NCBI GenBank assembly: GCA_022710585.1
Contig: JAKLGV010000017.1
Span: 1 to 64,000 of the forward strand
Direction: 5' to 3'
Length of the DNA stretch: 64,000 nt
DNA from: Deltaproteobacteria bacterium
GTDB lineage: Bacteria > Desulfobacterota > Syntrophia > Syntrophales > Smithellaceae
A program made the position numbers and the translations under genes. Every line of letters starts with the position of its first letter. The first letter of the stretch is position 1. The notes beneath the pieces are model-generated. The model saw only the letters and a program-made list of their open reading frames with translations, had not been told where the DNA came from and ran no database searches. Shown one piece after another: positions 26,044 to 56,844 of this stretch.

Positions 26044-29000
26044 TCAGGTAAGCTTATGGCCTTTTTCCCTGAATAATCTCAGGCAGGCGTCGGCCACGAT
26101 ACCGTCGTAAAGCGTTCCCCTGTTTTTTCCGATTTCATCGAGCGCGGCCTCTATGCCCGGGGCCGGACGATGGTAGCGATGGGAAACCATAGCCGATACG
26201 ACATCGGCAACGGCGAGAATTCTCGCCTCCAGGGAAATTTCATCTCCTTTCAGGCCTCTGGGATAGCCGGAACCATCCATTCTTTCGTGATGCTGATGAA
26301 CAATTTGTGCCAGCGGCCACGGGGATTCCACGTTTTTCAGAATCTCGTATCCGCTTCGGGAATGTTCTTTGATTAACGCGAACTCTACACTGGTCAGCTT
26401 CGCGGGCTTGGTCAGTATCTCCGGCGGGATCGACAGCTTGCCGATATCGTGAATGGCGCCGGCCATGCGGATAGCGTCAATCTTTTCCTGAGGCAGGCCC
26501 ATTTCCAGGGCAATATCGCGGGCCACATCCGCCGAACGGACCTGATGCAGGGCGGTGTAGGGATCCCGGACTTCCACGGCGGAAACCATCACCTGAAGCG
26601 TGCTGTCGTAAGCTTTACTCAGGCTCTCCAGGGTCTGCTGCAGTTTGGCTTCCATGTTTTTGCGCTCGGTGATGTCACGGACAACACCCCGAAAGCCAAT
26701 CGGTTTCCCGGATGAATCCTTCTGCAGCAGGATGGATATCTCCACATATCTTTGGGTCCCGTCCTTCCGGATGATCTGCCATTCCAGACCTTTGAGGGAT
26801 TGTCCCGTCTTGTAGACCTTGTTAAACGCTTTGTAGACTTTCCTGGCGGTTTCCGGATCCGTGTATTGCCGGTTGTTCATGCCCATCAATTCCTCTTTGG
26901 AGTAGCCGTGAATCCGGCACACGGCGTTATTGAAGAACGTATAGTTGCCGGCCAGATCAATTTCCCAATAGCCGTCTTCGATATTTTCCAGAGTTGTGGC
27001 CAGCTCGAAGAGCCGGGCATTCTCGATGGATATGGCCGCCTGGGCGGAAATCAAACGGAGCATATCCAGACGCTCCGGCGTGAACGCGTCTTCACTAATG
27101 TTGTTTTCCATATAAAGAATGCCGGAGATTTTGCCCTTGCTGATGATGGGAATGCACAGAATGGACTTGCACCGGCGATGGATGACATAGGCGTCGTCCG
27201 TGAAGGCGCCTTCCTGCGCCGCATTTCCGAGGATGACGTCTTTTCCGCTGTGATGAACGTAGTTGACAATGGCCTGGCAGATGTCGGGACAGTCGCTGAG
27301 CGGAATAGACTGCATCACCTTTGTTTCATCGCGATCCACGTCTTCGCTGGCGTCGATCATCAACTTCCCCTCCGACTCCAGCATGAGATAGCCGCGCTGG
27401 GCGCCGGCGCTGGTGACGGACATATGCATAATTTTCTGCAGGAGCCGCTCCAGCATCATTTCACTGGAGATCACCTGAGACACCTGCATGACTGCGGAGA
27501 GGTCCAGCGCAGCCGACAGATCGCCTCTCGTCTTTGCGGAGGCGGCTGCCTCAACATCCCGGGACGTCGCGGTTTCGGCAGGAACCAGGTCGGGATACAT
27601 TTTCCTGATCTTGTCGATCAGCGCTGTCGCGCCCCACCTGGAATAGCAGGCATACGCCTGAGTCATATACCGTCCGGCCTTTTCATGGTCGTTGATGGAT
27701 CGGTGCATCCCCGCGATAATTTCCGAAGCGATGCCCTCCACGACCAGATCGCCGCAGGTTCTGCACTGTTCAATCGCCTTCTCATAGAGCTTCTCCGCGG
27801 CAGGCAGATCGCCGCGCATCATCCAGGCATATAACGCCTGCATCGATGTATGCATGTAGGAACAGTTCATGGGAGCGCTTTTAGCCCACGCCTTCATTTT
27901 CCGCTCATTGATCTTGATGAAAGCCAAGTGTTTGAGCTTTTCCGCCGGGGCGGCATTTTTATAGACCATCAGCCGGGCAACCGAATCCAGCAGGACCGCG
28001 TATTTGTTGATCAGCACGCCCTGCTGCGAATCCATGTATTTTCTGAATTCATCGGAGGCTTTCAGGGCCAGTTTGTACTCGCTGAAAAGCGAATACAGGA
28101 TTAATTTGACGAACCAGTAAACCGAAAGAGCCGCCAGGTTTTCAGTACTCTTCCACGAGGGTAGAAGCTTCTCCGCGTCAATCGCTTTCCCGGTCAGTTC
28201 CACGGGATGGTCGGATCGCCCCAGCAAATTCAGGATACATTGCCAGGTCATCGACTGCAGCGTCAGGGTATGCCCCTGTTTCATTCCGGCAATGATTCTG
28301 TTGTTTCGCTCCATGTCTTTTTCCAGTTCGGAAAGCTCTTTGCCGGTGAAGATGTGATGCACGTCGGTGAAAAAGAGATTGAAGGTGGCAAAGCCCAGAT
28401 CACCTGTCTCCTGGCCGATTCGGTATCCCTCCAGCATCGGCTCAATGCTGTCTTTCATCGGAGAGGCCCAGTGCCGGACCAGTGCGTTGTACACAAAAAT
28501 GGTTCGGCACTCCTGATCCCGGGCATCCAGTTTATCCACCAGTTTCAGCCCCATTTTTCCGAAAGCCATCGCCGCGTTAAAATTCCACAGCCCCGCCGCC
28601 TGAACAATTCCGAAACCGGCAAACGCGAAGGCATGCTCCGGCGCCAGACCGTATTTGAATATCAGCCGGAAGGTTTTCAGAATAATCAGCGCGAGCAGAT
28701 TGGGATCGGTATAAAAAGCGGCGTGGCCCACGCTGGCCAGGATTTTTCCCGCCGCCAGGATTTCCGGATCGCTGGTTTTCGGCAGGTTGACCAGATCTTC
28801 GGATTTTTTCCCCGCAAGTTTGAGCATGATTCTGATCAGTTCCACAACGATATGAAGTTTGCCGGCTTTCTTCGGCAGCCGGACACCGAACCTGGGCGCG
28901 ATAGTATTCACAATCGGCATGGCCACGTCGATGGCGCCCCGGTAATCCTCGCGCGCGATACAGGCGTTGATCCGCGATGTGTAGATTCCGGCTTTCTCCC

Positions 29001-31425
29001 GTGTGGTCTTCGCGTGCTGCAGAGTGATTTCCGCCAGTTCATTCATCCTGTCGTAATGGCCCATCAGGTAGGCCGCTTCCGTCGCTTCGGTATAAAGGGC
29101 AACCGTAAGAGGGTATTGTTTTGTCCAGGGATTTTCTTCCAGAAGATCTATACCGCTTTTCAGATACTGGAAAGCCGGAGCATAAGCGGCAGAGGCCTTC
29201 GCCTTCTTTCCCGCTTCCAGATTGAGCCCGGCCAGCCATTCCCGTCCGGCGACGTCCTGAATCATCCTGACGCCAAGGTTGAGCTGATCAACGATATAGA
29301 AGAGTTTGCCCGGCAGATCTTTTTCGCCGGCTGTATCCAGAACCCTTTTCCCTATTTTGTAGTGAAGCGCCGATTTATCCTCTTCCTTCACCAGCGAATA
29401 GGCCGCCTCATGAATCCGGTCATGATGAAAGACGTAGTCATCGCCGATCTTGCTGACCATGCCCTCATGTATGGCTTCGGTCAAATCCCCCAGCGCCGCT
29501 TCAACGGTTGAATTTCTCACCGCTGCCAGCGTTTCCAGATTAAACCGGTTGCCGATGCAGGCGCAGATCTTCAAAACATCCCGGGTGGCCGCCGGGAGCT
29601 TTTCAATCTTCCCGGCCATCATCTGTACCAGATTGTCGGCAACTTTCATCCGGCTGATTTCGCCCACATCCCACTGCCAGCCCTGCGTTCCTTTATGGAT
29701 AATCATCTTTTCATTGTAAAGTGTATGCAGGAACTGATTCACGAAAAAGGGATTACCGCCCGCTTTTTCCTGGATCAGCCCGGCCAGTCCGAATCCTCTT
29801 TCTTCGGAGCAGCGAAGAAAATTAACGACCAGCTCCGTCACTTCTTTCTTTTTCAAAGGGCCCAGCGTGATTCTGTCCATACGGATACGCTGCCGCTCAA
29901 TGTCTTTCAGAAGTTCGGCAAACGGATGCGCTTCATCCACCTCGTTGTCCCGGTATGAAAATATGATGAAGAGATGATGGATGTCGCTGCAAATGATGTT
30001 TTTCATGAGCTGAAGACTCGCCCTGTCCGCCCACTGCAAATCATCCAGAAAAAGCGTCATCGGATGTTCCTTTTGCGGAAAGACGCCCATGAATTTTTCA
30101 AACACGAAATTAAAACGGTTTTTGGACTCCTCCGGCCCCAACAGCGGCAGTTCCGGCTGCTGCCCGATAATCAATTCGACTTCGGGAATCACATCGGTGA
30201 TGACTTTGCCGTTATCGCCCAGGGCTTTGGAAAGATTTTCTTTCCAAAGATTGATCCTGGCCGCGCTTTCCGAGAGGATTTGTTTCACCAGTAGTTGAAA
30301 CGCCTGAATAATGGCGCTGTACGGCTTGTCTCTTCTGAACTGCTCGTATTTGCCGGAAATAAAATAGCCGTGCCTGGCCACGATCGGCTTATGGATTTCA
30401 TGAATCATGGCCGACTTGCCGATACCCGGCGCGCCGGAGACAATCATCACCGAGATGCCCTTTCCCCGTTCAGCGGCTTCCTCAAATCTCGATATCAATG
30501 TATTGATCTCTTTTTCCCGTCCGAAAAGTTTCTGCGGAATGATGAACCGGATGGAGATGTCGTTTTTTCCCAGTTCAAATGAATCGATTCTGTTCTTCTC
30601 TTTCAGTTGCTTCAGGCATTCCCTGAAATCCGCCTCCAGACCGAAGCCGTTCTGGTATCTGGCTTCCGGATTCTTAGCCAGCAGCCTCATGAGGATATCC
30701 GAGACGATGACCGGGATTCGCGAATCCAGCTTCACCGGGGCCTTCGGCATCATGGCAATATGGGCATGAATGAGTTCCATGGGATCCTGAGATTTAAAGG
30801 GCAGCAGACCGGTCAGCATCTCATACAGCGTAATGCCCAGCGAATAAAGGTCGGTGCGGTAATCCACAGATCTGTTCATCCGGCCGGTTTGTTCGGGAGA
30901 CATATAGGTCAGCGTGTCGCTGATGAAACCGGGATTGTAAACCTCATCATTTTCATGCGTCAGGATGGCTGCGATGCCGAAATCCGTGATTTTCAATTCT
31001 TTCGTGTCCGGATGAATCAGGATGCTTTTGGGTTTGATGTTTCTGTGAATGATGCTCCGGGCATGCAGAGCTCCGAGCGTTTCAGCGATATTAGCCGCGA
31101 TGATCAGAAAGGATTGGATATCGAATTTTTCACCGCCGCGCAGATAGTCTTTAACGGGAACTCCCTCAAAATCCTCCAGGATAAGGGCAAATCCGTCTTT
31201 CTGGTCGATCATCTCGATAGTCTGAACGACCGTTTTCAGATCGAGGTTTTTAATGAGATCGTATTCCAGCCGGAATTGTGCCATCTCGGATGGGGTTGCG
31301 TGAGACGTCTTGAGCAGCCGGACAATGAACGATTCGGTTTCATTTTCCTTGTGGCCCCGGTAAACGGTGGAATTTCTGCTCTCGAACAATTTTTCCCGAA
31401 GGATGTAACGGCCGATCTTTTCCAT
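26044..31425 (-). CDS. Giant kinase-like/AAA/GAF/PAS/HD-GYP signalling protein
   Basis: A 1793-residue cytoplasmic signalling protein. Domains in order: Ser/Thr protein-kinase fold (1-275), AAA-type ATPase (about 300-500; Walker A GAPGIGKS 331-338, Walker B LFLDDLQWAD), a long TPR-like helical region (about 600-1270), GAF (about 1300-1470), PAS (1476-1590) and HD-GYP (about 1600-1793; HDIGK 1659-1663, GYP 1720-1722). The kinase keeps DFG (148-150), but its catalytic loop reads HRN (127-129) instead of HRD, so it may be a pseudokinase. The output is probably hydrolysis of cyclic di-GMP, complementing the nearby GGDEF cyclase. It stands alone. Confidence 0.9.
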   Translation of the reverse strand: MEKIGRYILREKLFESRNSTVYRGHKENETESFIVRLLKTSHATPSEMAQFRLEYDLIKNLDLKTVVQTIEMIDQKDGFALILEDFEGVPVKDYLRGGEKFDIQSFLIIAANIAETLGALHARSIIHRNIKPKSILIHPDTKELKITDFGIAAILTHENDEVYNPGFISDTLTYMSPEQTGRMNRSVDYRTDLYSLGITLYEMLTGLLPFKSQDPMELIHAHIAMMPKAPVKLDSRIPVIVSDILMRLLAKNPEARYQNGFGLEADFRECLKQLKEKNRIDSFELGKNDISIRFIIPQKLFGREKEINTLISRFEEAAERGKGISVMIVSGAPGIGKSAMIHEIHKPIVARHGYFISGKYEQFRRDKPYSAIIQAFQLLVKQILSESAARINLWKENLSKALGDNGKVITDVIPEVELIIGQQPELPLLGPEESKNRFNFVFEKFMGVFPQKEHPMTLFLDDLQWADRASLQLMKNIICSDIHHLFIIFSYRDNEVDEAHPFAELLKDIERQRIRMDRITLGPLKKKEVTELVVNFLRCSEERGFGLAGLIQEKAGGNPFFVNQFLHTLYNEKMIIHKGTQGWQWDVGEISRMKVADNLVQMMAGKIEKLPAATRDVLKICACIGNRFNLETLAAVRNSTVEAALGDLTEAIHEGMVSKIGDDYVFHHDRIHEAAYSLVKEEDKSALHYKIGKRVLDTAGEKDLPGKLFYIVDQLNLGVRMIQDVAGREWLAGLNLEAGKKAKASAAYAPAFQYLKSGIDLLEENPWTKQYPLTVALYTEATEAAYLMGHYDRMNELAEITLQHAKTTREKAGIYTSRINACIAREDYRGAIDVAMPIVNTIAPRFGVRLPKKAGKLHIVVELIRIMLKLAGKKSEDLVNLPKTSDPEILAAGKILASVGHAAFYTDPNLLALIILKTFRLIFKYGLAPEHAFAFAGFGIVQAAGLWNFNAAMAFGKMGLKLVDKLDARDQECRTIFVYNALVRHWASPMKDSIEPMLEGYRIGQETGDLGFATFNLFFTDVHHIFTGKELSELEKDMERNNRIIAGMKQGHTLTLQSMTWQCILNLLGRSDHPVELTGKAIDAEKLLPSWKSTENLAALSVYWFVKLILYSLFSEYKLALKASDEFRKYMDSQQGVLINKYAVLLDSVARLMVYKNAAPAEKLKHLAFIKINERKMKAWAKSAPMNCSYMHTSMQALYAWMMRGDLPAAEKLYEKAIEQCRTCGDLVVEGIASEIIAGMHRSINDHEKAGRYMTQAYACYSRWGATALIDKIRKMYPDLVPAETATSRDVEAAASAKTRGDLSAALDLSAVMQVSQVISSEMMLERLLQKIMHMSVTSAGAQRGYLMLESEGKLMIDASEDVDRDETKVMQSIPLSDCPDICQAIVNYVHHSGKDVILGNAAQEGAFTDDAYVIHRRCKSILCIPIISKGKISGILYMENNISEDAFTPERLDMLRLISAQAAISIENARLFELATTLENIEDGYWEIDLAGNYTFFNNAVCRIHGYSKEELMGMNNRQYTDPETARKVYKAFNKVYKTGQSLKGLEWQIIRKDGTQRYVEISILLQKDSSGKPIGFRGVVRDITERKNMEAKLQQTLESLSKAYDSTLQVMVSAVEVRDPYTALHQVRSADVARDIALEMGLPQEKIDAIRMAGAIHDIGKLSIPPEILTKPAKLTSVEFALIKEHSRSGYEILKNVESPWPLAQIVHQHHERMDGSGYPRGLKGDEISLEARILAVADVVSAMVSHRYHRPAPGIEAALDEIGKNRGTLYDGIVADACLRLFREKGHKLT

Positions 31426-31490: not shown

Positions 31491-32504
31491 CTATTTATTC
31501 ACCGCCGAGCCCGCACCCTTTTCAATCGCCAGTCTTCTGCGCAGGGCATCCGCTTCGTCGCCATACATCTGATTTTGAAGTTCGCTGATCCTTTTTTCCT
31601 TTTCCGCTTTTTCCAGAGAGGCATCATGGATGATCTCCGCTTCCCTGGCTTTATAATCCTGATCCATCTTTTCGTTTTTGGCGATGGCTCGGTCCACTTC
31701 CTCGAAACCGCGCACCTGTTCGGGCGAGAACAGCTCTTCCCGGAAAATTTTGATCTGTGATTTTCTGGCTTCTTCGCTCATTTCCGAAAAGTCTTTTTCA
31801 TACATCGCCAGCTTTTCTCTGTATTTGACATAGGGTTCGGCATAGGCATCCACGTTTTGCGCTTCATCTCCCCACATATCCTGATTCAACTGCTGCAACC
31901 TTTTTTCTTTTTCCGCACCGTACATATCTCTGCTGTTGAGGATGGCGCCGCGCCGCAGAGGATACTCCTCGGCTTTGATGCTGGCGCCAAAGAGCACATC
32001 GGCGATCTCCCGGCCAAAGACCTCCCGGCGGTAATTCTGAAGTTTGTGCAGAAAGCTCACGGTTTCTTCCGTGGTTTTAGGCATTCCCCATTCGTTTGCC
32101 TTCTCGCCCAGCGTCAACTGATACCGGACAAACTTTTTGTATAATTCAAAAAGCTTCCCGGCCATGGCCTCCGGCATTGAGTCATCAAGATATTTCCGGA
32201 CGTTTTCCAGAAGCTCTTCTTCGCTATCGAATTCTTTGAAATTCTCGTCGAGGAACATAAAGAATTTTATGGTGTAGGGATTGACAATGCTGTCTTTGAA
32301 GTAGTCCTTCGCGCTTTCCTCCTTGAAGTTGATATCTTTGTAAAATATTTCGATGTCCTTCAATTTAATCGGAGAGTTTTTGTCAAAAACAAAACCTTTA
32401 TCGGCGTTGACTTCATCGGATTCTGTCATTTTTCTGATGACCAGCGCCACGATCAATATCAGAAGGATCACCACGACGACCGCAAATATCTTTTTCTTAT
32501 TCAT
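31491..32504 (-). CDS. Lipase-specific foldase-like (Lif) membrane protein
   Basis: A 337-residue protein with one N-terminal transmembrane segment (residues 5-24), then an all-helical periplasmic domain rich in charged residues. The layout and several stretches match lipase chaperones: FFMFLDENFKEFDSEEELL corresponds to the RxxFDYxLSA region, and RREVFGREIADVLFGA to the second conserved block. Two similar helical segments near the C-terminus begin EKEKR. Such foldases hold and fold secreted family I lipases. The matching lipase is 8 kb away and frameshifted. The ATG at 32504 is chosen because the membrane helix follows directly. Confidence 0.65.
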   Translation of the reverse strand: MNKKKIFAVVVVILLILIVALVIRKMTESDEVNADKGFVFDKNSPIKLKDIEIFYKDINFKEESAKDYFKDSIVNPYTIKFFMFLDENFKEFDSEEELLENVRKYLDDSMPEAMAGKLFELYKKFVRYQLTLGEKANEWGMPKTTEETVSFLHKLQNYRREVFGREIADVLFGASIKAEEYPLRRGAILNSRDMYGAEKEKRLQQLNQDMWGDEAQNVDAYAEPYVKYREKLAMYEKDFSEMSEEARKSQIKIFREELFSPEQVRGFEEVDRAIAKNEKMDQDYKAREAEIIHDASLEKAEKEKRISELQNQMYGDEADALRRRLAIEKGAGSAVNK

Positions 32505-32629
32505 GGGAGATTCGCCCCCAAGTGGTATTTTATTTTGAACAATATTTATTGTTGGGATAGACGGAAGTATATGAATAACGTCGTCGCCTGTCAATAGATT
32601 TCAGGCCACTTTGTCAAATGAACAATAAC

Positions 32630-32951: not shown

Positions 32952-33677
32952 TTACTTCAGGAAAAATATCCGTCTGAAAATCAGATGGGTGAAGGTTGAG
33001 GAGTTGCGGCAGAAATCCACAAAAGGGCGGAAATGAGAAATTCTTCCACCTTCCGGATTGTAGCGAACACGAATTGGCGCTTCAATAACCGGTATGCCAT
33101 TTCTGTTGGCGTGAACCAGAATTTCCACTTCAAACTGAAAGCGACGCGCCTTTGTTTTTAAGTGACGCGCTTCGGGCAGCGGGTAAATACGAAATCCGCT
33201 TTGCGAATCTGAAATGGCGGGGCCTCCGGAGGTCCACACCCAGAAGTTGGAAAACTTCCGTCCGAAACTGCTTGTCCAGGGAACATCCTTGCCCGCCATG
33301 CCTTCCCGGGCTCCGACAACAATCGGCCGCGTATGTTCAGGAATGGCCTTGATAAGATTGATTGCATCTTCCGGATAATGCTGGCCATCGGCGTCAACGG
33401 TAATGGCAAAGTCGGCCACATCAGCTGCGGCTGCAAAGCCTGTCAGAATAGCTGCGCCCTTCCCTTGATTCTGTTCATGCCGCAGGATTTGAATGCCTTT
33501 GATTTCTTTGATCTGATTATACATGTCGTCAGTTGAACCATCGTCAACGACAAAAACCGGAAAGCCCAGCGCCTGCGCATCATTCACAACCTGCGGCACC
33601 GTCCCGGCATGATTGTAAACGGGAATGACAAAAGCAAAACGATTTTGATTATTAGATTCAATCAAATTTTTTTTCAC
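32952..33677 (-). CDS. Family 2 glycosyltransferase
   Basis: A 241-residue GT2 enzyme of the dolichol-phosphate-mannose-synthase-like type. The GT-A signature runs FVIPVYNHAG, VVDDGSTDD and the DADGQH (DxD) metal-binding site; a QSGFR motif follows. No membrane helix is obvious apart from a hydrophobic C-terminal end. It starts with GTG at 33677, overlapping the stop of the DhaL-DegV gene (TGATGTG) with AAAGGA upstream, so it is translationally coupled and is the last gene of the radical SAM/ammonia-lyase operon. GT2 enzymes are usual members of aryl polyene clusters; the sugar and acceptor are unknown. Confidence 0.85.
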   Translation of the reverse strand: MKKNLIESNNQNRFAFVIPVYNHAGTVPQVVNDAQALGFPVFVVDDGSTDDMYNQIKEIKGIQILRHEQNQGKGAAILTGFAAAADVADFAITVDADGQHYPEDAINLIKAIPEHTRPIVVGAREGMAGKDVPWTSSFGRKFSNFWVWTSGGPAISDSQSGFRIYPLPEARHLKTKARRFQFEVEILVHANRNGIPVIEAPIRVRYNPEGGRISHFRPFVDFCRNSSTFTHLIFRRIFFLK

Positions 33678-33678
33678 A

Positions 33679-35400
33679 TCAAAGTCCTTTGGAGTCCGGG
33701 AGAAATGCTATTCCCCACGTCCCCGGGCCCATATGCGCGCCGGACGTCAGCGACAGCGGCTGCAGAATAATTTCCGCTTTCTGATAAAGCTCCTCGATCT
33801 TTTTTTTAAACGTGCCTTCCACCCAATTTTTGTTGTCGGAATATTCCAGCATAATAAGAGCGCGGGAAGCGTCTTGAATGGCGGCGTCGAGTTTTTTTAG
33901 CGCGAACCTCACCTGATCTTCCTGATTTTTTGCCGTGCCGACTTTCTTTGCCCCCTCGGGCAGAGGTGAAATGATTGGCTTGACGTTCAGCATATCGCCG
34001 AAGAAAGCGCCGGTTTTGGACAGACGTCCGCCCTCGGCCAGGTATTGCAGTTTGTCCAGAAAGACATATTCTTTGCAGGCATCGACGGCTTTTCCGGCAA
34101 AGGCGACCGCCTTCGTCATATCTCTTGTTTCGGCCAGATAGCGGGCGGTGGCCAGCGCGATGATTCCCAGCCGTCCCGACGCCGCGCCGGTATCCATAAT
34201 CAGAAAACGGTCCTGCTTATGGTTTTCATTCCTCCACTGCTGTGCTGTCTGATAATTGCCGGTAAAAACGGAGCCCACGCACAGATACAAAACTTTTTCA
34301 AAGCGCTCCAGAACACTTTCATAAAACTGATGTCTTTCGTAAACAGAGGCCTGGGATGTGGACACCTTCACACCCTTTCTCATCGCGCTGTATAGATCTT
34401 CGGGATGAAAAAAGGTTTCGGGCAGGCTTTTATCGCCAACGGTCAGGTAACTGTTCAGCAACGTGAAGCCGTATTGCTTCGCGTCCTGATGGGTGAGCGA
34501 TCCGGCGGCATCGGTCATGATATGAAAGGCCCCGCCGTCCTTGGATTGCATAAACTCGGTGACCTGAGAGGCGAGATGATCGTCTTCCCAGCGGATGACT
34601 TGCCCCAGCCCGTCTATCTGCGAGCGGACTTTTTCCTTATTATCGGTGTGCAGATGAATTTTATAAAGTTCGCCGTCCGGAATAATGATCACCTCTTCCT
34701 GAACGCTGGTGATGATTTTGATGTCCTCAGACGAGGCGCGGGGCGCCCTGACGACAAAGTCAACGCAATAGCCGGATTCGGTTTTTTCATGAAAGGAAGA
34801 AGAAATTTTAAGTCGATCTTTGAACGTCTCCGTCACCGGGCGGCAACCATCCGGAATCCCGGCGAGCATGTAAAAGAATCCTTCAAAAAAAATATAGATG
34901 CCCAGAGCGCCGGCGTCCACCACACCCGCATCCTGCAGACGCGGGATTTGTTCGTAGGTTTCATGAACAGCCTTTTCCAGGGACGCAATGACGGCATCCG
35001 CCGCCGGTTTATCGGGTATTTTTTTCCCGGCCAGAGTTTCAGCCAGCGCGTCAAAGACGCTCAACATGGTACCGGGACGGGGATGGCTCACCGCACGCCA
35101 TGCTTTCTTTGAGCCTTCTGAGGCGCGGTCGGCAAGCTGTGAAACGTCGTCCGCCATACAAAAAGCGGAAAAAAACTGTGAGGCGATATTGCCGGAATTG
35201 CCGCGCGCCGACAGCAGCAAGTCATGAACTATTTTTTCATTCGGCTGTCCGGCGTGGCGCAGCGGGAGGAGGCTTAAGTTCAGGTTTCTTCCCGTGTCGC
35301 CGTCGGCAACGGGAAACACATTGATGGAATCCAGGAGATCCGCGCGGGCAATCAGGCGCTCCAATCCGGCAATCAAAGATTTTTGCAGAACATCTTCCAT
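33679..35400 (-). CDS. DhaL-DegV fusion, fatty-acid-kinase-like
   Basis: A 573-residue fusion. Residues 1-200 are a DhaL/Dak2 kinase domain with the ATP-Mg motif VADGDTG (about 31-37), ARGNSG (65-70) and DAGVVDAGALG. A linker follows, then a DegV lipid-binding domain from about residue 285 (TDAAGSL, STSQAS, YLAEGGRLSKTG and KPIISP). In Gram-positive bacteria separate FakA (Dak2) and FakB (DegV) phosphorylate fatty acids. Here both activities appear in one chain, so it may make an acyl phosphate. It lies 2 bases downstream of the thioesterase, which could release the acid it uses. Activity is inferred. Confidence 0.85.
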   Translation of the reverse strand: MEDVLQKSLIAGLERLIARADLLDSINVFPVADGDTGRNLNLSLLPLRHAGQPNEKIVHDLLLSARGNSGNIASQFFSAFCMADDVSQLADRASEGSKKAWRAVSHPRPGTMLSVFDALAETLAGKKIPDKPAADAVIASLEKAVHETYEQIPRLQDAGVVDAGALGIYIFFEGFFYMLAGIPDGCRPVTETFKDRLKISSSFHEKTESGYCVDFVVRAPRASSEDIKIITSVQEEVIIIPDGELYKIHLHTDNKEKVRSQIDGLGQVIRWEDDHLASQVTEFMQSKDGGAFHIMTDAAGSLTHQDAKQYGFTLLNSYLTVGDKSLPETFFHPEDLYSAMRKGVKVSTSQASVYERHQFYESVLERFEKVLYLCVGSVFTGNYQTAQQWRNENHKQDRFLIMDTGAASGRLGIIALATARYLAETRDMTKAVAFAGKAVDACKEYVFLDKLQYLAEGGRLSKTGAFFGDMLNVKPIISPLPEGAKKVGTAKNQEDQVRFALKKLDAAIQDASRALIMLEYSDNKNWVEGTFKKKIEELYQKAEIILQPLSLTSGAHMGPGTWGIAFLPDSKGL

Positions 35401-35402
35401 GA

Positions 35403-35819
35403 TTAAAAACCGAAGGCGCTGCGAATTTCCTGCGGAACACTGAAGATCATTTCCATGTCGGGAACCCTGACGGTGACCTGTTCCGTGCGGCCGCGGGCGC
35501 AAACCTTGCCGCTGTCGGCATGGCGAATTTCAAAATCCACAATGATTTTCACGCGGGCGTCCACCAGCGTCGCCTTGCAGATGATTTCATCGCGGTGACG
35601 CAAAGGCAGAATATGTTTGGTCGATGTCTTGATGATGGGAAAGATGAGCTTCTGCTTTTCAAAAAAGGCGTAGAGGTCGATACCGCTATTTTCAAAAAGC
35701 GCCGCGCGGGCCACTTCAAAATAGTTCAGATAGTTGGCATGCCAGACGATCTGCATGGGATCGAGATCAAAAAAAGGAATTCTTATTTTTACTTCAAAGC
35801 TTTTTTGTTTTTCCGTCAT
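35403..35819 (-). CDS. Hotdog acyl-CoA/ACP thioesterase (4-hydroxybenzoyl-CoA thioesterase family)
   Basis: A 138-residue single hotdog domain of the YbgC/4HBT type. The catalytic motif is FFDLDPMQIVWHANYLNYFE (about residues 15-34), with Asp at the nucleophile position and the family HxNY. It begins in an ATGA overlap with the upstream ammonia-lyase gene, so the two are coupled. Thioesterases are found in aryl polyene clusters (ApeK-like). It may hydrolyse an aryl- or polyenoyl-thioester; an ORF extension to 35861 looks spurious. Confidence 0.85.
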   Translation of the reverse strand: MTEKQKSFEVKIRIPFFDLDPMQIVWHANYLNYFEVARAALFENSGIDLYAFFEKQKLIFPIIKTSTKHILPLRHRDEIICKATLVDARVKIIVDFEIRHADSGKVCARGRTEQVTVRVPDMEMIFSVPQEIRSAFGF

Positions 35820-37369
35820 GGCTTTAGTTTGAAGAAGTCGGAGTATTGAATGGCCGAGCACACGTTCTCGATGTCCCGATCCATCGCCCGGTCATCCACC
35901 ACCGGCGCGCTGACCGACCGGATATTGCTCATAAGATTGGCCAGTGCCGGCCGGGCATCGATATTGTTTCGGATGTCGCAGGCTTGCGCCGCGGCCAGAA
36001 GGTGAATGGCCACAACGCGTTCTGTCAGCGTGCAGACCCGTTCGGCGTCGCGCGCCGCGATGGTTCCCATGCTGACCTTGTCCTGATTATGCGATTCGGT
36101 GGAGCGCGAAAAAGATGCCGCCGGCATGGTGGCCTTCAATGCTTCCGCCGTCAGCGCCGATGAAGAAATCGACATGGCCTTGAAGCCGTGGCGCAATCCC
36201 TTTTCCCCGGCGGATTTCCTGACCAGATCGCCCGGAAGTCCGCGGTTGAGATTCGGATTCACCAGCAGCATGACCTGCCGGTCACACATATCGGCCACGG
36301 ATGCCAGCGCCGCCTTGAGTCCGTCCATGGCAAAAGCGATGTGGCCGCCATAGAAATTGCCGCCCATCAGCACGTCGCCGCTTTGCGGATCGAAAAGCGG
36401 GTTGTCGTTGGAGCTGTTGGCTTCCCTTTCCACCCATTTCTTAATCCATTCGAGACTGTCATATAAGACACCCGCGACCTGCGGGGCGCAGCGCAGGGAG
36501 TAGGGATCCTGAAGCGTCTCCAGTGCGTCATCTTCCAGGTGGACGGATGCCACTCTGGCCTTCAGAAGTTTGACAATCTGCGCGGAGACAAAAATCTGAC
36601 CTGGAAAGGGTTTGGCTTCGGAAATAACCGGATGATAATGCTGGGCGTTGCCCTTGAGGGCGTGAATGGAAAGCGCGGTGGCGGAAATTACGGCGGATAA
36701 AATCCGCCAGGCCCTCTCCACCGCCAGAACAGCGATACCCGTCATGGTGGTGGTGCCGTTGAGCATGGCCAACGGCTCTTTGGGCAAATACCGGTAGGGT
36801 TTAATGCCCGCCTGCTTTAAGGCTTTTGCCGCCGGCATGGTCTTGCCCCGGTAAATGACGTCGCGCTTGCCCGTCAGACAGGCGCCGACATAAGACATCG
36901 GCGTCAGATCGCCGGAGGCGCCGACCGAACCTTCGCAGGGGACCACCGGTGTGATGCCGTGATTGAGAAAATCGGCCATTTGTTTCAACAGCGCGATAGA
37001 TACGCCGGAATAGCCGCGGGCCAGACAGATGATGCGGCACAGCATCGCCGCCCTTGTTTCTTCAATACCGATGGGCTCTCCCGTGCCGCAGCCGTGGAAT
37101 TCAAGAATGTTGACGCCATTTTTCATGGCGATTTCCATGGACATGCGCTTGCCGCACGATTTGCCGTAGCCGGTGGTGACGCCGTAAACAGGGATCCCCT
37201 TCTGCATGGCATTAATGAGAATCTTCTGCGTCTTCTCCATTTTTTTTATAAAGGAAGCTGATGGGCTGATTTGCACGGGAACACCGTAGCGCGCCACAGC
37301 AATAATATCATTGAAGTCTACAAAGCTGCCGTCAATGACCAGAACGGCCTTGTGATTATTCTTTTTCAT
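35816..37369 (-). CDS. MIO-type aromatic amino acid ammonia-lyase
   Basis: A 517-residue ammonia-lyase that would convert Phe, Tyr or His to the 2,3-unsaturated acid without cofactor. The MIO-forming triad Ala151-Ser152-Gly153 is within EGSVGASGDLTPMSY, and the catalytic Tyr is in VTTGYGK (Tyr68). The selectivity pair lies in LEFHGCG: Phe91-His92 where tyrosine lyases have His-Leu. The PMSY after the triad resembles PAL/TAL more than HutH. No hut genes are nearby. The product, cinnamate or coumarate, would suit the adenylating ligase at 18.6-20 kb as an aryl polyene starter (inference). AAAGGA precedes ATG 37369. Confidence 0.85.
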   Translation of the reverse strand: MKKNNHKAVLVIDGSFVDFNDIIAVARYGVPVQISPSASFIKKMEKTQKILINAMQKGIPVYGVTTGYGKSCGKRMSMEIAMKNGVNILEFHGCGTGEPIGIEETRAAMLCRIICLARGYSGVSIALLKQMADFLNHGITPVVPCEGSVGASGDLTPMSYVGACLTGKRDVIYRGKTMPAAKALKQAGIKPYRYLPKEPLAMLNGTTTMTGIAVLAVERAWRILSAVISATALSIHALKGNAQHYHPVISEAKPFPGQIFVSAQIVKLLKARVASVHLEDDALETLQDPYSLRCAPQVAGVLYDSLEWIKKWVEREANSSNDNPLFDPQSGDVLMGGNFYGGHIAFAMDGLKAALASVADMCDRQVMLLVNPNLNRGLPGDLVRKSAGEKGLRHGFKAMSISSSALTAEALKATMPAASFSRSTESHNQDKVSMGTIAARDAERVCTLTERVVAIHLLAAAQACDIRNNIDARPALANLMSNIRSVSAPVVDDRAMDRDIENVCSAIQYSDFFKLKP

Positions 37370-38621
37370 CGAATTTCCTTTCCCGGACTGCCGGCCGTCG
37401 ATCTCGCGGCTTGTAAGTGCCGTCCGCCTTTTCCTTATCCATAACTTTTTTCAGCAGTTTAAACATCTTGTAATTCTGCGGCTCTTCTTCGTAAAATTTG
37501 TCCCAGCAGTAATAATAAAGCTCCTGAAGTTTTTCCGGCGTTAATGCCTGAGGCTGAAAAACGACCTTTCCACAGGTGTAATCGTTCCAGTCGTAAGAAA
37601 ATATTCTTTTCGCATTGTGCAAATCGTCGAAGGTCTTTGTGTGCGGAAAGGGAGTGAGAACCGTGAACTCTGCCATATCCAGCTCAACGTCCAGGAGAAA
37701 ATCAACCAGTTTCTTGATATAATCTTCGGTATGGTAATCCAGGCCCAGCAGGATACTGCCTTCCACCGCGATGCCGTAATCGTGATAGCGCTTGATGCGG
37801 TCACGGATAAAATCGGACGTGTCGAAAATCGCCTGATAGACAAACCATGCGCCGGCCTGCGCGGCCAGATCCAGCACATGATCGTCGTTTTCAATGGGAT
37901 GGCAGCACCATTTCTTTTTCAGGGGAATCATTTCCCGGAATAAATCCATCTCCCATTGTTTGTCCTGCGCCAGAGAATTATCCACAATAAAAAGGCGGTT
38001 ATTGTCGATCTTCGCCATTTCTTCGACAACCTTATCATAAGGACGGGGCCGGAACTTCCGACCGCCCAGAAACCGCACCGCGCAGGGATAGCAGTTGAAG
38101 CGGCACCCCCGGGACGCGTGCACCAGGTCCACCATCTGTACACCGCGATAATTGTACATTTCACGGTTGAGAATGCCGCGCCTTGCTGTGCCCACGCTTT
38201 CAATAGGCGGAAAATCCTGCATGTAGTCATAAATTTTTTGCAATCTGCCGTTTCGGAAATCGTCAAAAACCCGTTCCATCCGGCCTTCGGCTTCGCCCAG
38301 AAAAACACTGTCGGCATGCAGTTGAGTTTCCTCGGCGTGCAGCATCGTGGCAATGCCGCCGAAAATGACCTTGATGCCTTTGGCGCGGAATTGACCGGCG
38401 ATTTCCCAGCCGCGTTTGATCTGCGCCGTCAGCATCATCGAAATGCCGACAAAATCGACCGCCTGATCAAAATCAATGTCCTGAATGTTTTCATCAATGA
38501 ATTCAACGCGCACATCATCGGGCAGTGCGGCGGCAAAAACGACCGGCCCGTGCGGCGGCAGAATAAACCGCGTCTGCCGATCGAGCTTTTCCCACTTCGG
38601 ATAGATCAGTAAAAAATTCAT
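37356..38621 (-). CDS. B12-binding-domain radical SAM enzyme
   Basis: A 421-residue class B-type radical SAM protein, first gene of a minus-strand operon. The N-terminal cobalamin-binding-like domain (about residues 1-130) has VGISMMLTAQIKRGWEIA and VIFGGIATMLHAEE. The radical SAM core then shows ASRGCRFNCYPCA (CxxxCxxC, 4Fe-4S ligands). The cobalamin-binding His signature is not clear. Such enzymes catalyse methyl transfer or ring rearrangement. Its stop overlaps the ammonia-lyase start by 14 bases. I chose ATG 38621 over a GTG at 38636. Substrate unknown; an aryl polyene or lipid modification is possible. Confidence 0.85.
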   Translation of the reverse strand: MNFLLIYPKWEKLDRQTRFILPPHGPVVFAAALPDDVRVEFIDENIQDIDFDQAVDFVGISMMLTAQIKRGWEIAGQFRAKGIKVIFGGIATMLHAEETQLHADSVFLGEAEGRMERVFDDFRNGRLQKIYDYMQDFPPIESVGTARRGILNREMYNYRGVQMVDLVHASRGCRFNCYPCAVRFLGGRKFRPRPYDKVVEEMAKIDNNRLFIVDNSLAQDKQWEMDLFREMIPLKKKWCCHPIENDDHVLDLAAQAGAWFVYQAIFDTSDFIRDRIKRYHDYGIAVEGSILLGLDYHTEDYIKKLVDFLLDVELDMAEFTVLTPFPHTKTFDDLHNAKRIFSYDWNDYTCGKVVFQPQALTPEKLQELYYYCWDKFYEEEPQNYKMFKLLKKVMDKEKADGTYKPRDRRPAVRERKFDEKE

Positions 38622-38664
38622 AAAATTTTCTTTCACGTATTTTATAGCTTACGCAACAAAGCCC

Positions 38665-42114: not shown

Positions 42115-43356
42115 TTACCTTCCCAGAATTAAATAGCAGTAGGTTCCGCCGAAAGAAATACCCGCCAGAGCGGCGTTGTCGATTTCCAGACCTTTCTTCT
42201 CATCTTTCACAAACGCAAGCGATTCCAGGGGATGCTCAAGTCCTGCCGTCGGGGGCAGAGATTTTTTCTCGATGGCCAGAGCCATGGCGCAGGCCCTGAT
42301 CCCGCCCCCGGAAAAGCTTTCTCCCAGCACGCCTTTCATCGCCATGATGGATGGCTGCTCATCCGGGGATCCCCCTATCTGCGAATACGCTTCGGATTCC
42401 GCCGCGTCAAGATGGGTGTCGCCGTTGGCCGCCGCAAAGATTGCCTGCAGATCATGAACAGCAATGCCTGCGTTTTTCAGCGCGCGGTGAAGCGTCTGTT
42501 GGATGCCATCCGGATTCCGCGGCCAAACGTTGGGCCGGATCGGCGAAGAGCCCATTCCCACACCCTTGATTTCGCAATAAGGATGACGCCCCCGGGCTTC
42601 GGCTGATCGCAGACTTTCCAGACAAATAATGCCGCAGCCCTCTCCGGCGACGGTGCCGTTGCGGTCTCTGTCGAAGGGGCGGCAGGATTCCTCTTTGCCG
42701 TTTTGCGGTGAAAGCGCGTGGAACTTCGTCAGCGCCTGAAAATAAAATTCGGATAAAATATCCGCGCCGCCGGCAAAAATAAAATCCGCCGTGCCGCGCC
42801 TGATTTCCGCCGCCGCGTAAGCGATCGCGTTTTCGGCGGACACGGCGAAATGCGTTACGGTGGTGTTCACGCCGCGAAAGCCCAGTTCGATGGAGGTATG
42901 GCCGGCGGCGGCGTTCATCACGGTATTCGGCACCAGAATGGGATTGACGGATGCCGGGCCGTCTTTGAAAAGGGTTTGCAGAAACTGGGCGGTGATGTCG
43001 GTCGCCCCGAAAGCGGTTCCCAGCACAATGCCGACGCGGTCACGGTTTTCCGCGGTGATTTGCATGCCCGCGTCATTGAGAGCCAGTCGCGCCGCCGCGG
43101 CCGTCATCAGAGATATTTTGTCCATCCGCCGGATGTTTTTCACGGAGATGAAATCACGCGGGTTGAAGTTTCTGACTTCCGCGCCCAGATGGGAGGAAAA
43201 CGCGTTGGTGTTAAAGGACGCGATTTCCGCGATGCCGGTTTCGCCCGCAAAAAGTCTGCCGCCGAATTCTTCCCTGCCGATCCCCAGAGGCGTCACCATG
43301 CCGATGCCGGTGACAACGACGCGCTGCGCCTTATCGATTTGCCGGCCGTTAGTCAT
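42115..43356 (-). CDS. Catalytically dead ketosynthase, chain-length-factor-like (KS-beta)
   Basis: A 413-residue thiolase-fold protein of the FabF family. All three catalytic positions are replaced: the Cys is Phe170 (VTHFAVSAENAI), the first His is Asn310 (AANGDTH) and the second is Glu345 (LGESFSGGG). This is what is seen in chain-length factors of type II polyketide synthases, which pair with an active ketosynthase. Its start overlaps the end of the upstream active ketosynthase by 8 bases, so the pair is made in equal amounts. In aryl polyene systems such a KS/CLF pair makes the polyene chain. Confidence 0.85.
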   Translation of the reverse strand: MTNGRQIDKAQRVVVTGIGMVTPLGIGREEFGGRLFAGETGIAEIASFNTNAFSSHLGAEVRNFNPRDFISVKNIRRMDKISLMTAAAARLALNDAGMQITAENRDRVGIVLGTAFGATDITAQFLQTLFKDGPASVNPILVPNTVMNAAAGHTSIELGFRGVNTTVTHFAVSAENAIAYAAAEIRRGTADFIFAGGADILSEFYFQALTKFHALSPQNGKEESCRPFDRDRNGTVAGEGCGIICLESLRSAEARGRHPYCEIKGVGMGSSPIRPNVWPRNPDGIQQTLHRALKNAGIAVHDLQAIFAAANGDTHLDAAESEAYSQIGGSPDEQPSIMAMKGVLGESFSGGGIRACAMALAIEKKSLPPTAGLEHPLESLAFVKDEKKGLEIDNAALAGISFGGTYCYLILGR

Positions 43357-44617
43357 GAGCGGCGCCCTTTTCTGAATATTTGCCGAAAATCAACGTCGTG
43401 TTGTTGCCTCCGAAAGCGAAGGAGTTGGAAAGAACGGCGCGCAAATCGGCTTTTCGGGAACCGGACGTGACGTAATCCAGATCGCACTGCGGATCGCTCT
43501 GCCGATGGTTGACGGTGGGCGGAATGAACCCCTGACGGATCGCCAGAACGGAAACAATGGCCTCCAGAGCGCCGGAGGCCCCCAGGGTATGCGCGTGCAT
43601 GGATTTGGTGGAGCTGACAGGAATTTCGTAAGCGCGCTTTCCGAAGACTTCTTTGATGGCTCTGGTTTCCGTCACATCATTGACGGGTGTTGCCGTTCCG
43701 TGCGCGTTGATGTAATCGATATCATCCGCGGTCAGGCCGCTGTCCTGAAGCGCCGTCCGCATGGCGCGCACGGCGCCTGAAGCCTGTTCATCCGGCGCTG
43801 TCATATGATAAGCATCGCAGGTAATGCCGTAGCCCAGCATCTCGCCGTATATTTTTGCTCCCCTCTGCAGAGCCGATTCCAGCGGCTCCAGAATCATAAT
43901 GGCCGCAGCCTCTCCCAGAGAAAGTCCGGCGCGGTCTTGATCAAAGGGGCGGCACGTTTCGGGATCAACGGATTTCAGCGCGTTGAAAGCGGCAAAGGTC
44001 AGCCGGCTCATAGGCTCCACACCGCCGGTGATCATAACAGAGGCATGTCCGTCAGCGATAAAATCACGCGCGCAGCCGATGGCTGTGGCGCCGGCGGAAC
44101 AGGCGGTCATAAAAGTTGATTTTGGTCCGGTCAAACCCAATACGGATGCTATGCAGTCGGTGGAAGAAGCGCAGAACAAAGAAGCCAGAGCGGAAAACTT
44201 CGCGTTTTGTCCCGGATGGCTCAGGTAATCCTTGTAGAATTCTTCTCCCTCCAGAAGTCCTCCCGCACCGCCGCCAAGGGCGATGCCGGTTTTTTCTTTT
44301 AATGCTTCCGGCAGCGGATAAAGTCCGGCGTCGCGCAAAGCTTCAATGGTCGCGGCCAGAGCCATCTGGTCCGCCCGCGACGTTCGTTTGATGGAAAACT
44401 CCGGGGGAATATGATCGCGGGGAACGAAACGCTTGATCTGGCCGCCCGTTTGAGAACGAAAGCCGCCGGTGTCAAACAGGTCAATAACCTCAATACCGCA
44501 GCGGCCTTCCTGAAGCGCCCTTGCGAAATCATCAGCATTACCGGCGATAGCGTTGAGCGTGCCCATGCCGGTAATAACGATACGTTTTTTCAACCCTATG
44601 TTTCTCCCGGTATTCAT
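43349..44617 (-). CDS. Beta-ketoacyl-ACP synthase II-type, active partner of KS-beta
   Basis: A 422-residue FabF-like condensing enzyme. The catalytic residues are Cys173 (TACSAGATAI), His306 (NAHGTATPVND) and His343 (HTLGASGA), all present. Typical sequence GFAFGGNN near the end (here SFAFGGNN) is kept. With the downstream dead paralogue it probably forms a heterodimer that elongates an aryl or polyene chain on an ACP. ATG 44617 has GGGAG upstream. It is divergent from fkpA, with separate promoters in the shared 157-base gap. Confidence 0.9.
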   Translation of the reverse strand: MNTGRNIGLKKRIVITGMGTLNAIAGNADDFARALQEGRCGIEVIDLFDTGGFRSQTGGQIKRFVPRDHIPPEFSIKRTSRADQMALAATIEALRDAGLYPLPEALKEKTGIALGGGAGGLLEGEEFYKDYLSHPGQNAKFSALASLFCASSTDCIASVLGLTGPKSTFMTACSAGATAIGCARDFIADGHASVMITGGVEPMSRLTFAAFNALKSVDPETCRPFDQDRAGLSLGEAAAIMILEPLESALQRGAKIYGEMLGYGITCDAYHMTAPDEQASGAVRAMRTALQDSGLTADDIDYINAHGTATPVNDVTETRAIKEVFGKRAYEIPVSSTKSMHAHTLGASGALEAIVSVLAIRQGFIPPTVNHRQSDPQCDLDYVTSGSRKADLRAVLSNSFAFGGNNTTLIFGKYSEKGAAHD

Positions 44618-46022: not shown

Positions 46023-47264
46023 GTGAAGCATAGCTCAAAAACACGCGTAGTCATTACCGGTGTCGGATTAACCGCTCCCAACGCAAACAATCTCAAGGAT
46101 TTCCGCGAAGCGCTGCTGTCCCAAAAATCGGGAATTACCGAGATGGACGTGCGCTACATGGGAAAAGTGGCCGTCGGCAACTGCAATTTTGACGAATTTC
46201 TCTATCAAAAGAAAAAAATGCGCAGACGGGGAACGCGCGCCGGTTCCATTTCCATTTATTGCGCCCATGAAGCGCTGATCGACAGCGGGTTGTCCGCGGA
46301 TGCGCTGGTGAAAGACAGGACGGGCATCTATCTGGGGATTACCGAACACGGCAACGTCGAAACGGAAAATGAAATCTATGAGCTTCATGAAAACAAGCTC
46401 GACGCGGGTTTGTGGTCGCATCATCATAATCCCCGGACCGTGGCCAACGCGCCGGCCGGAGAAGTCAGCCTGAATTTAGGCATTACCGGCCCGACCTATA
46501 CCATCGGCGCGGCCTGCGCGGCGGGCAATATCGGAATTATTCACGGCATGCAGATGCTGCAGTTGGACGAAGTGGATCTGGCGTTGGCCGGAGGTGTTTC
46601 CGAAAGCACGGGAACGTTCGGTATCTTTGCCGGTTTCAAGAGTCAGGGCGCGCTGGGGTCTCATGAGGATCCCACGAAAGCCAGCCGTCCGCTGGATGTC
46701 GATCGTAACGGCATTGTTGTCTCCGAGGGAGGGGCTGTTTTTGTCCTGGAACGACTGGAGGATGCCTTGAAACGGGGCGCGAAAATATACGGCGAAATCG
46801 CCGGATATCATATCAATTCCGACGCCGCGGATTTTGTTCTTCCGGATACACAAAGGCAGATTGAGTGTATGAATGCCGCAATGGCCAAGGCAAAAATTAC
46901 AGCCTCTGACATTGATATTGTCAATCTTCACGCGACTGGAACAACATCAGGCGATATTAACGAATCGGAAGCCGTCCGCGCCGTTTTCGGCCAGTCCGAC
47001 AATACCTACATCAATTGTACCAAAGGCTTCATCGGCCACGCGATGGGCGCCGCAGGAGCGCTGGAACTGGCGGGAAACCTGCCCAGTTTTACCGACGGCA
47101 AAATTCATTCATGCAAAATGATCGAAAACGTCGATCCCAAGTGTGGCATGAAAAATCTGGTGAATGGCGAGCCTGTCGAAAAGGACGTTCGTTATATTCT
47201 GAGCAATTCTTTCGGAATGCTCGGAATTAATTCCATATTAATCATTAAAAAATATCAACCATAA
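46023..47264 (+). CDS. Beta-ketoacyl-ACP synthase, FabF-like, of the Ole operon
   Basis: A 413-residue condensing enzyme opening an 11-gene run. Catalytic Cys165 (GAACAAGN), His303 (NLHATGTT) and His339 (GFIGHAMGAAG) are intact. It differs clearly from the KS pair upstream. It should elongate acyl chains on the adjacent ACP. The start is GTG at 46023 with GGAAAAGG just upstream. The ACP follows after 21 bases. Together with FabG, FabZ and FabI homologues later in the operon, it makes a dedicated type II fatty-acid-synthase set. Chain length made is unknown. Confidence 0.9.
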   Translation: MKHSSKTRVVITGVGLTAPNANNLKDFREALLSQKSGITEMDVRYMGKVAVGNCNFDEFLYQKKKMRRRGTRAGSISIYCAHEALIDSGLSADALVKDRTGIYLGITEHGNVETENEIYELHENKLDAGLWSHHHNPRTVANAPAGEVSLNLGITGPTYTIGAACAAGNIGIIHGMQMLQLDEVDLALAGGVSESTGTFGIFAGFKSQGALGSHEDPTKASRPLDVDRNGIVVSEGGAVFVLERLEDALKRGAKIYGEIAGYHINSDAADFVLPDTQRQIECMNAAMAKAKITASDIDIVNLHATGTTSGDINESEAVRAVFGQSDNTYINCTKGFIGHAMGAAGALELAGNLPSFTDGKIHSCKMIENVDPKCGMKNLVNGEPVEKDVRYILSNSFGMLGINSILIIKKYQP

Positions 47265-47285
47265 ATTTTACAGGGAGGTAGAATC

Positions 47286-47543
47286 ATGGACTATCAGTCT
47301 ATCAGGAAAAAAATTATTGATATCATCGCGGAGATCGCCATCGATGAGGATCTTTCCAACCTGGATGACAATATCAGACTCCGGGAACAGCTCGATATGG
47401 ATTCCATGGATTTTCTGGATGTCGTGATGGAACTGAAAAAACGGTACAAAATAGAAGTTCCCACCGAAGATTACATGAAACTGGCAACCTTGAAAAGCTG
47501 CATTGAATATCTGGGGCCCAAATTTGCATTAAGTCCGGCATAA
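47286..47543 (+). CDS. Acyl carrier protein
   Basis: An 85-residue acidic ACP. The phosphopantetheine attachment site is the Ser in LDMDSMDFLDVV (about residue 39). The helical four-bundle pattern and size fit. GGGAGGTAG precedes its ATG. It overlaps the next gene by one base (TAATG). It is probably a specialised ACP, dedicated to this operon and distinct from the housekeeping one. Confidence 0.92.
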   Translation: MDYQSIRKKIIDIIAEIAIDEDLSNLDDNIRLREQLDMDSMDFLDVVMELKKRYKIEVPTEDYMKLATLKSCIEYLGPKFALSPA

Positions 47544-48928: not shown

Positions 48929-49956
48929 AGTTTAAGAACGCCGTTATCTCTTCCTTTGCCTATCATCTTCCCGAACAAATTATGACGACGGAAGCCATTG
49001 AAGAAAAACTTGCCCCTCTGTATCAGCGCCTCAAACTGCCGGCCGGGCGCATCGAACTGATGACCGGCATAAAGGAAAGGCGCTTCTGGCCGCCTGGCAC
49101 CATGCCCAGTGATTTGTCCACTCAGGCCGCCCGAAATCTGTTTGGAAAAAAAATCGTTCAGCCGGAGCAGATCGATTTGTTGATTCATGCCTCCGTCTGC
49201 CGCGATTTTCTGGAACCTTCAACGGCTTCGATTGTTCACCATAATCTGGGGCTGAAGGCGGAAATCATGTTTTTTGATCTCTCCAACGCCTGCCTGGGAA
49301 TGATGAGCTCCTTTGTCGTCGCCGCCAACATGATTGATAACGGTTTGATTAAGCACGCACTCATCGTCTCCGGTGAAAACGGCGGCCCGCTGCTTTTTCA
49401 TACGATTGAGCATTTATTAAAAGATGAAAATATCACCAGAAAAAGCATCAAGAAATATATTGCGAATTTAACCATCGGTTCTGCCGCTGTCGCCTATACC
49501 GTTTCGCACAAGGATTATGTCGATGATGGACACCTCCTTCTGGGGGGAGCCTCTCTGGTGGATTCATCCGCCAATGTTCTCTGCCGCGGCGGCGGAGACA
49601 CCCACTCCCTGATGATGGAAACCGATTCCGAAGAGCTGATGAAATCCGGCGTCGCGCTGGCCGAAAAGACCTGGGCCCAAACCAAACAGGAACTGGAATG
49701 GACCAACGAAGATGTTGATTATTTTGTCGGCCATCAGGTGGGCATCGCGCATGAAACCCTTCTCAAACAAATATTAAAACTCGAAAACTGCCCCACTTTT
49801 ACCACTTACCAGTATCTGGGCAATACGGGAGCCTCCGCATTGCCCATCACGCTCAACATTTTTGACGAACAAAATAAAATTCCCAAAGGCAGCCGGGTCG
49901 GTCTGCTGGGCATCGGGTCGGGCCTCAATTCCATTATGCTGGGGGTCCAGTGGTAA
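48925..49956 (+). CDS. oleA: OleA-type long-chain acyl head-to-head condensing enzyme
   Basis: A 343-residue thiolase-superfamily enzyme that condenses two acyl thioesters without decarboxylation of a malonyl group, giving a 2-alkyl-3-ketoalkanoate. It has the OleA signature SVCRDFLEPSTAS with the essential Glu97, catalytic Cys123 (SNACLG), His270 (VGHQVG) and Asn300 (LGNTGAS). This separates it from FabH. The ATGA overlap with the flavoprotein gene and the adjacency of oleB-C-D secure the assignment. In this operon its substrates may be unusual acyl-ACP or acyl-CoA chains. Confidence 0.95.
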   Translation: MKFKNAVISSFAYHLPEQIMTTEAIEEKLAPLYQRLKLPAGRIELMTGIKERRFWPPGTMPSDLSTQAARNLFGKKIVQPEQIDLLIHASVCRDFLEPSTASIVHHNLGLKAEIMFFDLSNACLGMMSSFVVAANMIDNGLIKHALIVSGENGGPLLFHTIEHLLKDENITRKSIKKYIANLTIGSAAVAYTVSHKDYVDDGHLLLGGASLVDSSANVLCRGGGDTHSLMMETDSEELMKSGVALAEKTWAQTKQELEWTNEDVDYFVGHQVGIAHETLLKQILKLENCPTFTTYQYLGNTGASALPITLNIFDEQNKIPKGSRVGLLGIGSGLNSIMLGVQW

Positions 49957-50810: not shown

Positions 50811-50843
50811 ATCCGGGTTCATTACGGTGAGAAGCTGCCGATT

Positions 50844-54862: not shown

Positions 54863-54869
54863 GGTGCAT

Positions 54870-56026: not shown

Positions 56027-56036
56027 GAGGATAAAT

Positions 56037-56828: not shown

Positions 56829-56844
56829 ATCAAAGGACATTACA

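Follow-up and report, generated by a model that had tools for sequence, protein, structure and literature searches.

A predicted one-chain fatty-acid kinase in a polyene/ladderane-like lipid gene cluster of Desulfobacterota

The FakAB/PlsY chemistry is known from Firmicutes, where it serves the use of exogenous fatty acids. FakAB of these bacteria (S. aureus, Enterococcus) combines a DhaL ATP-binding domain, a linker with a Cys-His-His triad, and a DegV/FakB domain with carboxylate-site residues. The N-terminal domain of S. aureus FakA is active together with the linker, in which Cys240, His282 and His284 are located; the C-terminal domain is FakB-like and serves to dock FakB (PMC9136124).

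Aryl polyene and flexirubin clusters (ape, flx/dar) contain an ammonia-lyase, a KS/CLF-type pair, KR, DH, a thioesterase, a GT2 glycosyltransferase, LpxL-like acyltransferases, LolA and an MMPL exporter. There is no kinase among the ape genes ApeA-R, and how the aryl-polyene chain reaches its lipid anchor is left open in the APE literature consulted (PMC8253772). Ladderane-type FAS clusters, described for Kuenenia and Desulfotalea, contain a B12-binding/radical SAM protein (rSAM) of family TIGR04072, further radical SAM proteins, divergent KS and ACP; acyltransferase, thioesterase and DegV are unmentioned in the text of Rattray 2009 (PMC2649909).

We analyzed a stretch of 64,000 nucleotides (hereinafter the window) from a Smithellaceae genome of the order Syntrophales, phylum Desulfobacterota (GCA_022710585.1, contig JAKLGV010000017.1). 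A gene on the minus strand (33679-35400) encodes a DhaL/FakA_N domain, a FakA linker and a DegV/FakB domain in a single chain. Its ATG at 35400 gives a protein of 573 aa; the longest mechanical start is an in-frame TTG at 35502. The three domains, each matched over its own Pfam cut-off and all read from the minus strand, are a Dak2/FakA_N ATP-binding domain (aa 30-175, 34876-35313; Dak2, 1.5e-18), a FakA linker domain with the Cys-His-His triad (aa 209-282, 34555-34776; FakA-like_M, 9e-7) and a predicted DegV/FakB fatty-acid-binding domain (aa 292-568, 33697-34527; DegV, 2.6e-43). NCBIfam likewise assigns aa 6-286 to a YloV/FakA half and aa 293-566 to DegV. Both sets of matches agree with the preliminary description of this DNA, which had placed FakA- and FakB-like modules in one polypeptide.

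Unlike FakAB of Firmicutes, the protein is one chain, has T-G-N where the canonical FakB loop reads S-G-T, and belongs to a specialised-lipid cluster in a genome without PlsX. Pfam finds no match in it to FakA-like_C, the C-terminal FakB-docking domain of FakA, and DegV occupies that place. Since this domain is missing and the NCBIfam score for NF038248 is far under the cut-off, the strict model does not class the fusion as a FakA orthologue. The genome (2.95 Mb) holds one Dak2 gene and one DegV gene, and both are the fusion. Its nearest copy, 81% identical, is in a genome of the same genus, and a homologue scan over genome contigs matched close relatives only. A misassembly is ruled out because the same architecture recurs in 53 of the 79 genomes of the order and in about 33 of the 394 genomes of the phylum.

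Residue conservation was assessed in 51 fusion homologues that are 38-81% identical to the fusion of the window. D33, D35, N39, G70, P107, G110 and T111 of the Dak2 domain are present in all 51. The linker triad is nearly as constant (C212 in 51, H249 in 50 and H251 in 49). In the DegV domain, R459 and H556 are invariant, S377 is found in 50 homologues and T348 in 49 with Ser in the rest; T380 is also conserved. From an alignment to DegV/FakB structures and background knowledge, we take T348, S377, R459 and H556 to be the FakB carboxylate site. A model of the whole fusion built from 13 close homologues had a pLDDT of 50 and was uninterpretable, so the lipid-binding pocket, which the preliminary description had singled out as a point to check, was examined on the sequence instead; the presumed carboxylate-site residues proved near-invariant. 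The DegV domain modelled alone has a modest pLDDT of 62, and its fold matches fatty-acid-binding DegV/FakB structures.

The order of N-terminal domain, linker and DegV would make a plausible complete enzyme, because FakA needs only FakA_N and FakA_L for activity, FakA_C being a docking domain similar to FakB (PMC9136124). The sequence thus gives strong grounds for assigning the fusion as a predicted fatty-acid kinase. The domains, the triad and the carboxylate-site residues are conserved and the DegV model matches known structures; the fusion is therefore likely to be a working carboxylate kinase for long-chain acids.

The kinase gene is part of a five-gene operon on the minus strand. A 4HBT_2-type (YbgC/FadM-like) thioesterase (TE; 35403-35819; Pfam/NCBIfam) lies 2 bases upstream, as had been noted before: its stop codon is at 35403-35405 and the kinase ATG at 35398-35400. 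Upstream of it are a MIO-type aromatic amino-acid (histidine/tyrosine-like) ammonia-lyase with the MIO motif ASGD (HAL; 35816-37369; Pfam/NCBIfam and motif) and a B12-binding/radical SAM protein (37356-38636; Pfam/NCBIfam). Directly downstream of the kinase is a GT2 glycosyltransferase (32952-33677; Pfam and neighbourhood). The rSAM gene is the best-conserved one of the cluster, with about 67-73% identity across most families where it is present, above the kinase; it matches curated families weakly, TIGR04072 at just 50 bits. Pfam and motifs also identify, on the minus strand, a beta-ketoacyl synthase with an active-site Cys (TACSAG; 43349-44617) and its partner, a chain-length-factor-like KS protein without this Cys (42115-43356). 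In this genome three plus-strand genes lie between the pair and the kinase operon, whereas in sister genera the two are contiguous or nearly so. The previously suggested polyene operon thus holds as an aryl-polyene-like cluster, but in the window it is not a single operon.

Two further minus-strand genes were seen in the window beyond GT2: a lipase-chaperone (Lif) family protein (31491-32594), and a signalling protein of 1793 aa (26044-31425) in which we read Ser/Thr kinase, AAA, GAF, PAS and HD domains.

rSAM, HAL, TE and the fusion form a tight block in the Smithella family, at each of the 14 loci taken from named records (one of these has a broken fusion), and also in further genera. Where the contig extends that far, GT2 follows the fusion immediately or within about 1.6 kb. 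The arrangement rSAM-HAL-TE-fusion-GT2 is conserved across the order. In sister genera this block is preceded by the KS/CLF-type pair, an AMP-ligase and an acyl-CoA dehydrogenase, and followed by an MMPL-methyltransferase fusion, an LpxL-like acyltransferase and a DarH-type acyltransferase, the last of which is also a flexirubin-type feature. Other families show the same genes, joined by KR, a LolA whose nearest family is flexirubin LolA2, and a protein of 225 aa. Among the export and acyltransferase genes, GT2 alone adjoins the kinase in the window; LolA, MMPL and LpxL are found in the sister genus and in other families. Every home-family locus examined has TE immediately before the fusion, as do families f4, f7, f17, f19, f29, f49, f66 and f79. 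A link to acyl-metabolism genes, for which the preliminary description had suggested a survey of other genomes, is thus present in many of them.

Judged by predicted gene content, this neighbourhood is that of an aryl polyene/flexirubin cluster to which a fatty-acid kinase and several radical SAM proteins are added, together with the divergent PlsY described below (PlsY2). The membership of the fusion gene in a polyene/ladderane-like lipid cluster is well supported, and it rests on the conserved gene neighbourhoods. We found no description of a DegV protein or a fatty-acid kinase in aryl-polyene or natural-product clusters in the open-licence PMC literature. As a separate observation, the MMPL transporter beside the kinase cluster carries a fused C-terminal methyltransferase (L098:5012-8119, minus strand; L056:10922-13990, plus strand).

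The preliminary description had also suggested that the kinase product feeds a PlsX/PlsY-type lipid transfer. PlsX was found over the cut-off in none of the 79 genomes of the order, the source genome included, and control genomes were positive. A PlsY-type link exists statistically. PlsY and the fusion are each present in 53 of the 79 genomes, with both in 49 and neither in 22; PlsY without the fusion occurs in G053, G073, G078 and G038. Of the order's 20 other families, six carry the fusion and every one of these has PlsY, against only two of those without the fusion (p = 0.002; the calculation conservatively counted three such PlsY families instead of two). The PlsX part of the suggestion is therefore not supported, and the PlsY part is supported as a link, which is physical in six genomes (see below). 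As PlsX is absent from the genome and the sampled order, the kinase product would feed a PlsY-type enzyme directly. The remaining 26 genomes have no PlsY match at all and presumably rely on a PlsB-like GPAT.

PlsY2 is encoded at the end of a conserved cluster that across the phylum is often merged with the fusion cluster; the Smithella copies of this cluster and of the kinase operon lie on separate contigs. This cluster encodes a B12/rSAM protein, a polysaccharide deacetylase, a dehydratase, ACP, two radical SAM proteins, two KS, a 4HBT thioesterase of its own, a 307-aa protein of unknown family and PlsY2. Its B12/rSAM protein matches TIGR04072 with 393 bits against a cut-off of 360. By its predicted genes the cluster is ladderane-type in the sense of Rattray et al. 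(PMC2649909); unlike the described ones, it has a thioesterase and PlsY2 at its end and is linked to an acyl kinase. The protein before PlsY2 (L068:12197-13120) has versions of ~510 aa in L049 and L076, and the long L049 version has a C-terminal 4'-phosphopantetheinyl transferase domain.

Co-occurrence was tested in 394 genomes of the phylum that are at least 90% complete. We defined the PlsY2 group by a search with PlsY2 itself (E below 1e-40), which gave 19 genomes including its own; the next match was at 1e-24. The fusion is present in 16 of the 19 (Fisher's test gives p = 8e-17 over genomes and 2e-7 over families, the latter being fairer since genomes are not independent). The distance between the two genes is 4 kb in G056, 9 kb in G193, 10 kb in G122, 18 kb in G084, and 26 kb in G049 and G068; in G377 it is 90 kb. 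A seventeenth genome (G437) has unfused fakA and fakB genes 18 bases apart and 3.8 kb from PlsY2, and Pfam shows that this FakA retains the C-terminal docking domain. The pair is possibly an independent recruitment of a fatty-acid kinase. It was found at L115:297-2879, near PlsY2 and a polysaccharide deacetylase. In the two other PlsY2 genomes (G254, G426) a search for the kinase found none.

For PlsY2, as in the PlsX/PlsY pathway, an acyl-phosphate is the proposed donor, and the G3P clamp (S35, R45, K104, N180) with H177 is intact in 26 of 26 sequences. PlsY2 differs from canonical PlsY in forming a separate H92N group: the acyl-phosphate-binding His92 (aaPlsY numbering) is Asn in 25 of 26, and Thr41 is found in 18. 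In Aquifex PlsY, H92N leaves 7% activity (PMC5700162). PlsY2 of L068 (13169-13756) and its relatives are thus natural carriers of a replacement at a residue that is hard to replace by mutagenesis, with the clamp intact.

On these grounds we propose that the home of the fusion would be an aryl-polyene/ladderane-like lipid pathway of Desulfobacterota, in which it would act as a one-chain fatty-acid kinase whose FakB part stands where FakA has its docking domain. The KS/CLF-type pair and the FAS-like cluster would make an unusual, probably polyene, chain, and the 4HBT thioesterase would free it from ACP or CoA as an acid. The DegV half would bind this acid and the DhaL half would phosphorylate its carboxyl group with ATP, as homology and the conserved residues suggest. 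The acyl-phosphate, derived from free acid and ATP rather than through PlsX, may then pass directly to PlsY2, with glycerol-3-phosphate or a similar molecule as the acceptor; co-occurrence and linkage point to this coupling. GT2, the LpxL-like acyltransferase, MMPL and LolA would decorate and export the lipid. On balance, we lean slightly towards such a sequence of release by TE, phosphorylation by the fusion and attachment by PlsY2 to a glycerol-phosphate acceptor without PlsX. PlsY2 cannot be the sole use of the fusion, since about half of the fusion genomes of the phylum lack it: 17 of the 33 have no PlsY2, have PlsX and, in all but G089, canonical PlsY. They include f32, f56, most of f66, f81, f90 and f114. 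Further points against the sequence are the Asn at His92 of PlsY2, the genomes with PlsY or PlsY2 but no fusion, the separate contigs in Smithella, and the absence of HAL and TE beside the fusion in f32, f81, f90 and f114. In addition, the E. coli APE thioesterase ApeK is dispensable, and in vitro it was not seen to hydrolyze ACP intermediates (PMC8253772). We also considered replacement of PlsX as the sole role of the fusion. This is weakened by the same PlsX-containing genomes and by many genomes, about 48 in the phylum by a hand count, that keep canonical PlsY and have lost both PlsX and the fusion.

The fusion could instead be a housekeeping kinase that supplies bulk phospholipid synthesis with acyl-phosphate made from ordinary free fatty acids, either recycled or imported, PlsY2 being the general GPAT of a PlsX-less lineage. 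Smithella relatives live on fatty acids, and the fusion is the only Dak2/DegV gene of a genome that lacks PlsX. Moreover, G056, G064 and G070 have the fusion and PlsY and no PlsB-like match, so the fusion with PlsY may be the only route there. However, a PlsB-like GPAT (scoring under the NCBIfam cut-off) is present in 72 of the 79 genomes of the order, which means that PlsY2 is usually not the bulk-phospholipid enzyme. In most families the fusion is in a specialised cluster, PlsY2 is in a ladderane-type one, and PlsY is missing as well from most fusion-free genomes of the order. We therefore regard the housekeeping role as unlikely.

The adjacent lyase suggests another substrate, the aryl acid that the preliminary description had considered: the fusion would phosphorylate lyase-made cinnamate or coumarate for loading onto ACP as a starter unit. 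The lyase adjoins the fusion in nine families, and in f90 the fusion is directly preceded by an AMP-ligase gene; the best family of this ligase, under its cut-off, is 4-coumarate-CoA ligase. Yet the lyase is absent near the fusion in f19, f20, f27, f66, f32, f81, f90 and f114, and in the last four of these TE is missing as well, with another gene in its position. Since the fusion persists in such clusters, an aryl acid is a less likely substrate than a long acyl chain. In addition, the ligands of DegV/FakB proteins are long fatty acids, and loading of ACP from acyl-phosphate needs PlsX, which the sampled order lacks. Starter activation is thus quite improbable. We give least credence to a proofreading or salvage function, in which TE would clear stalled ACP intermediates and the kinase would merely recycle the freed acids: proofreading has been proposed for ApeK (PMC8253772), but it leaves the association with PlsY2 unexplained.

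If the proposed TE, one-chain kinase and PlsY2 series were a general PlsX-independent route of Desulfobacterota for attaching a polyene or ladderane-like chain to a membrane lipid, a tentative extension that we consider possible rather than probable, it would fill the step left open in aryl-polyene biosynthesis. The acyl-phosphate would explain how an aryl polyene is handed over to its lipid anchor, and the FakAB/PlsY chemistry would gain a biosynthetic role in Gram-negative anaerobes. For the PlsX-less order, an ATP-dependent acyl-phosphate would be the only predicted donor for its PlsY.

The window also contains a hydrocarbon-type gene set. On the plus strand, positions 48925-53440 encode an OleA-OleB-OleC-OleD-like series of KSIII, alpha/beta hydrolase, olefin beta-lactone synthetase-like ligase and OleD-like reductase. 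Within 46023-57339 it is flanked by KS, ACP and a CrtI-like oxidase on one side and by CrtI-like, SDR, FabZ and SDR genes on the other. With these flanks the set is probably responsible for polyunsaturated hydrocarbon synthesis; such hydrocarbons have been reported for Desulfotalea (PMC2649909).
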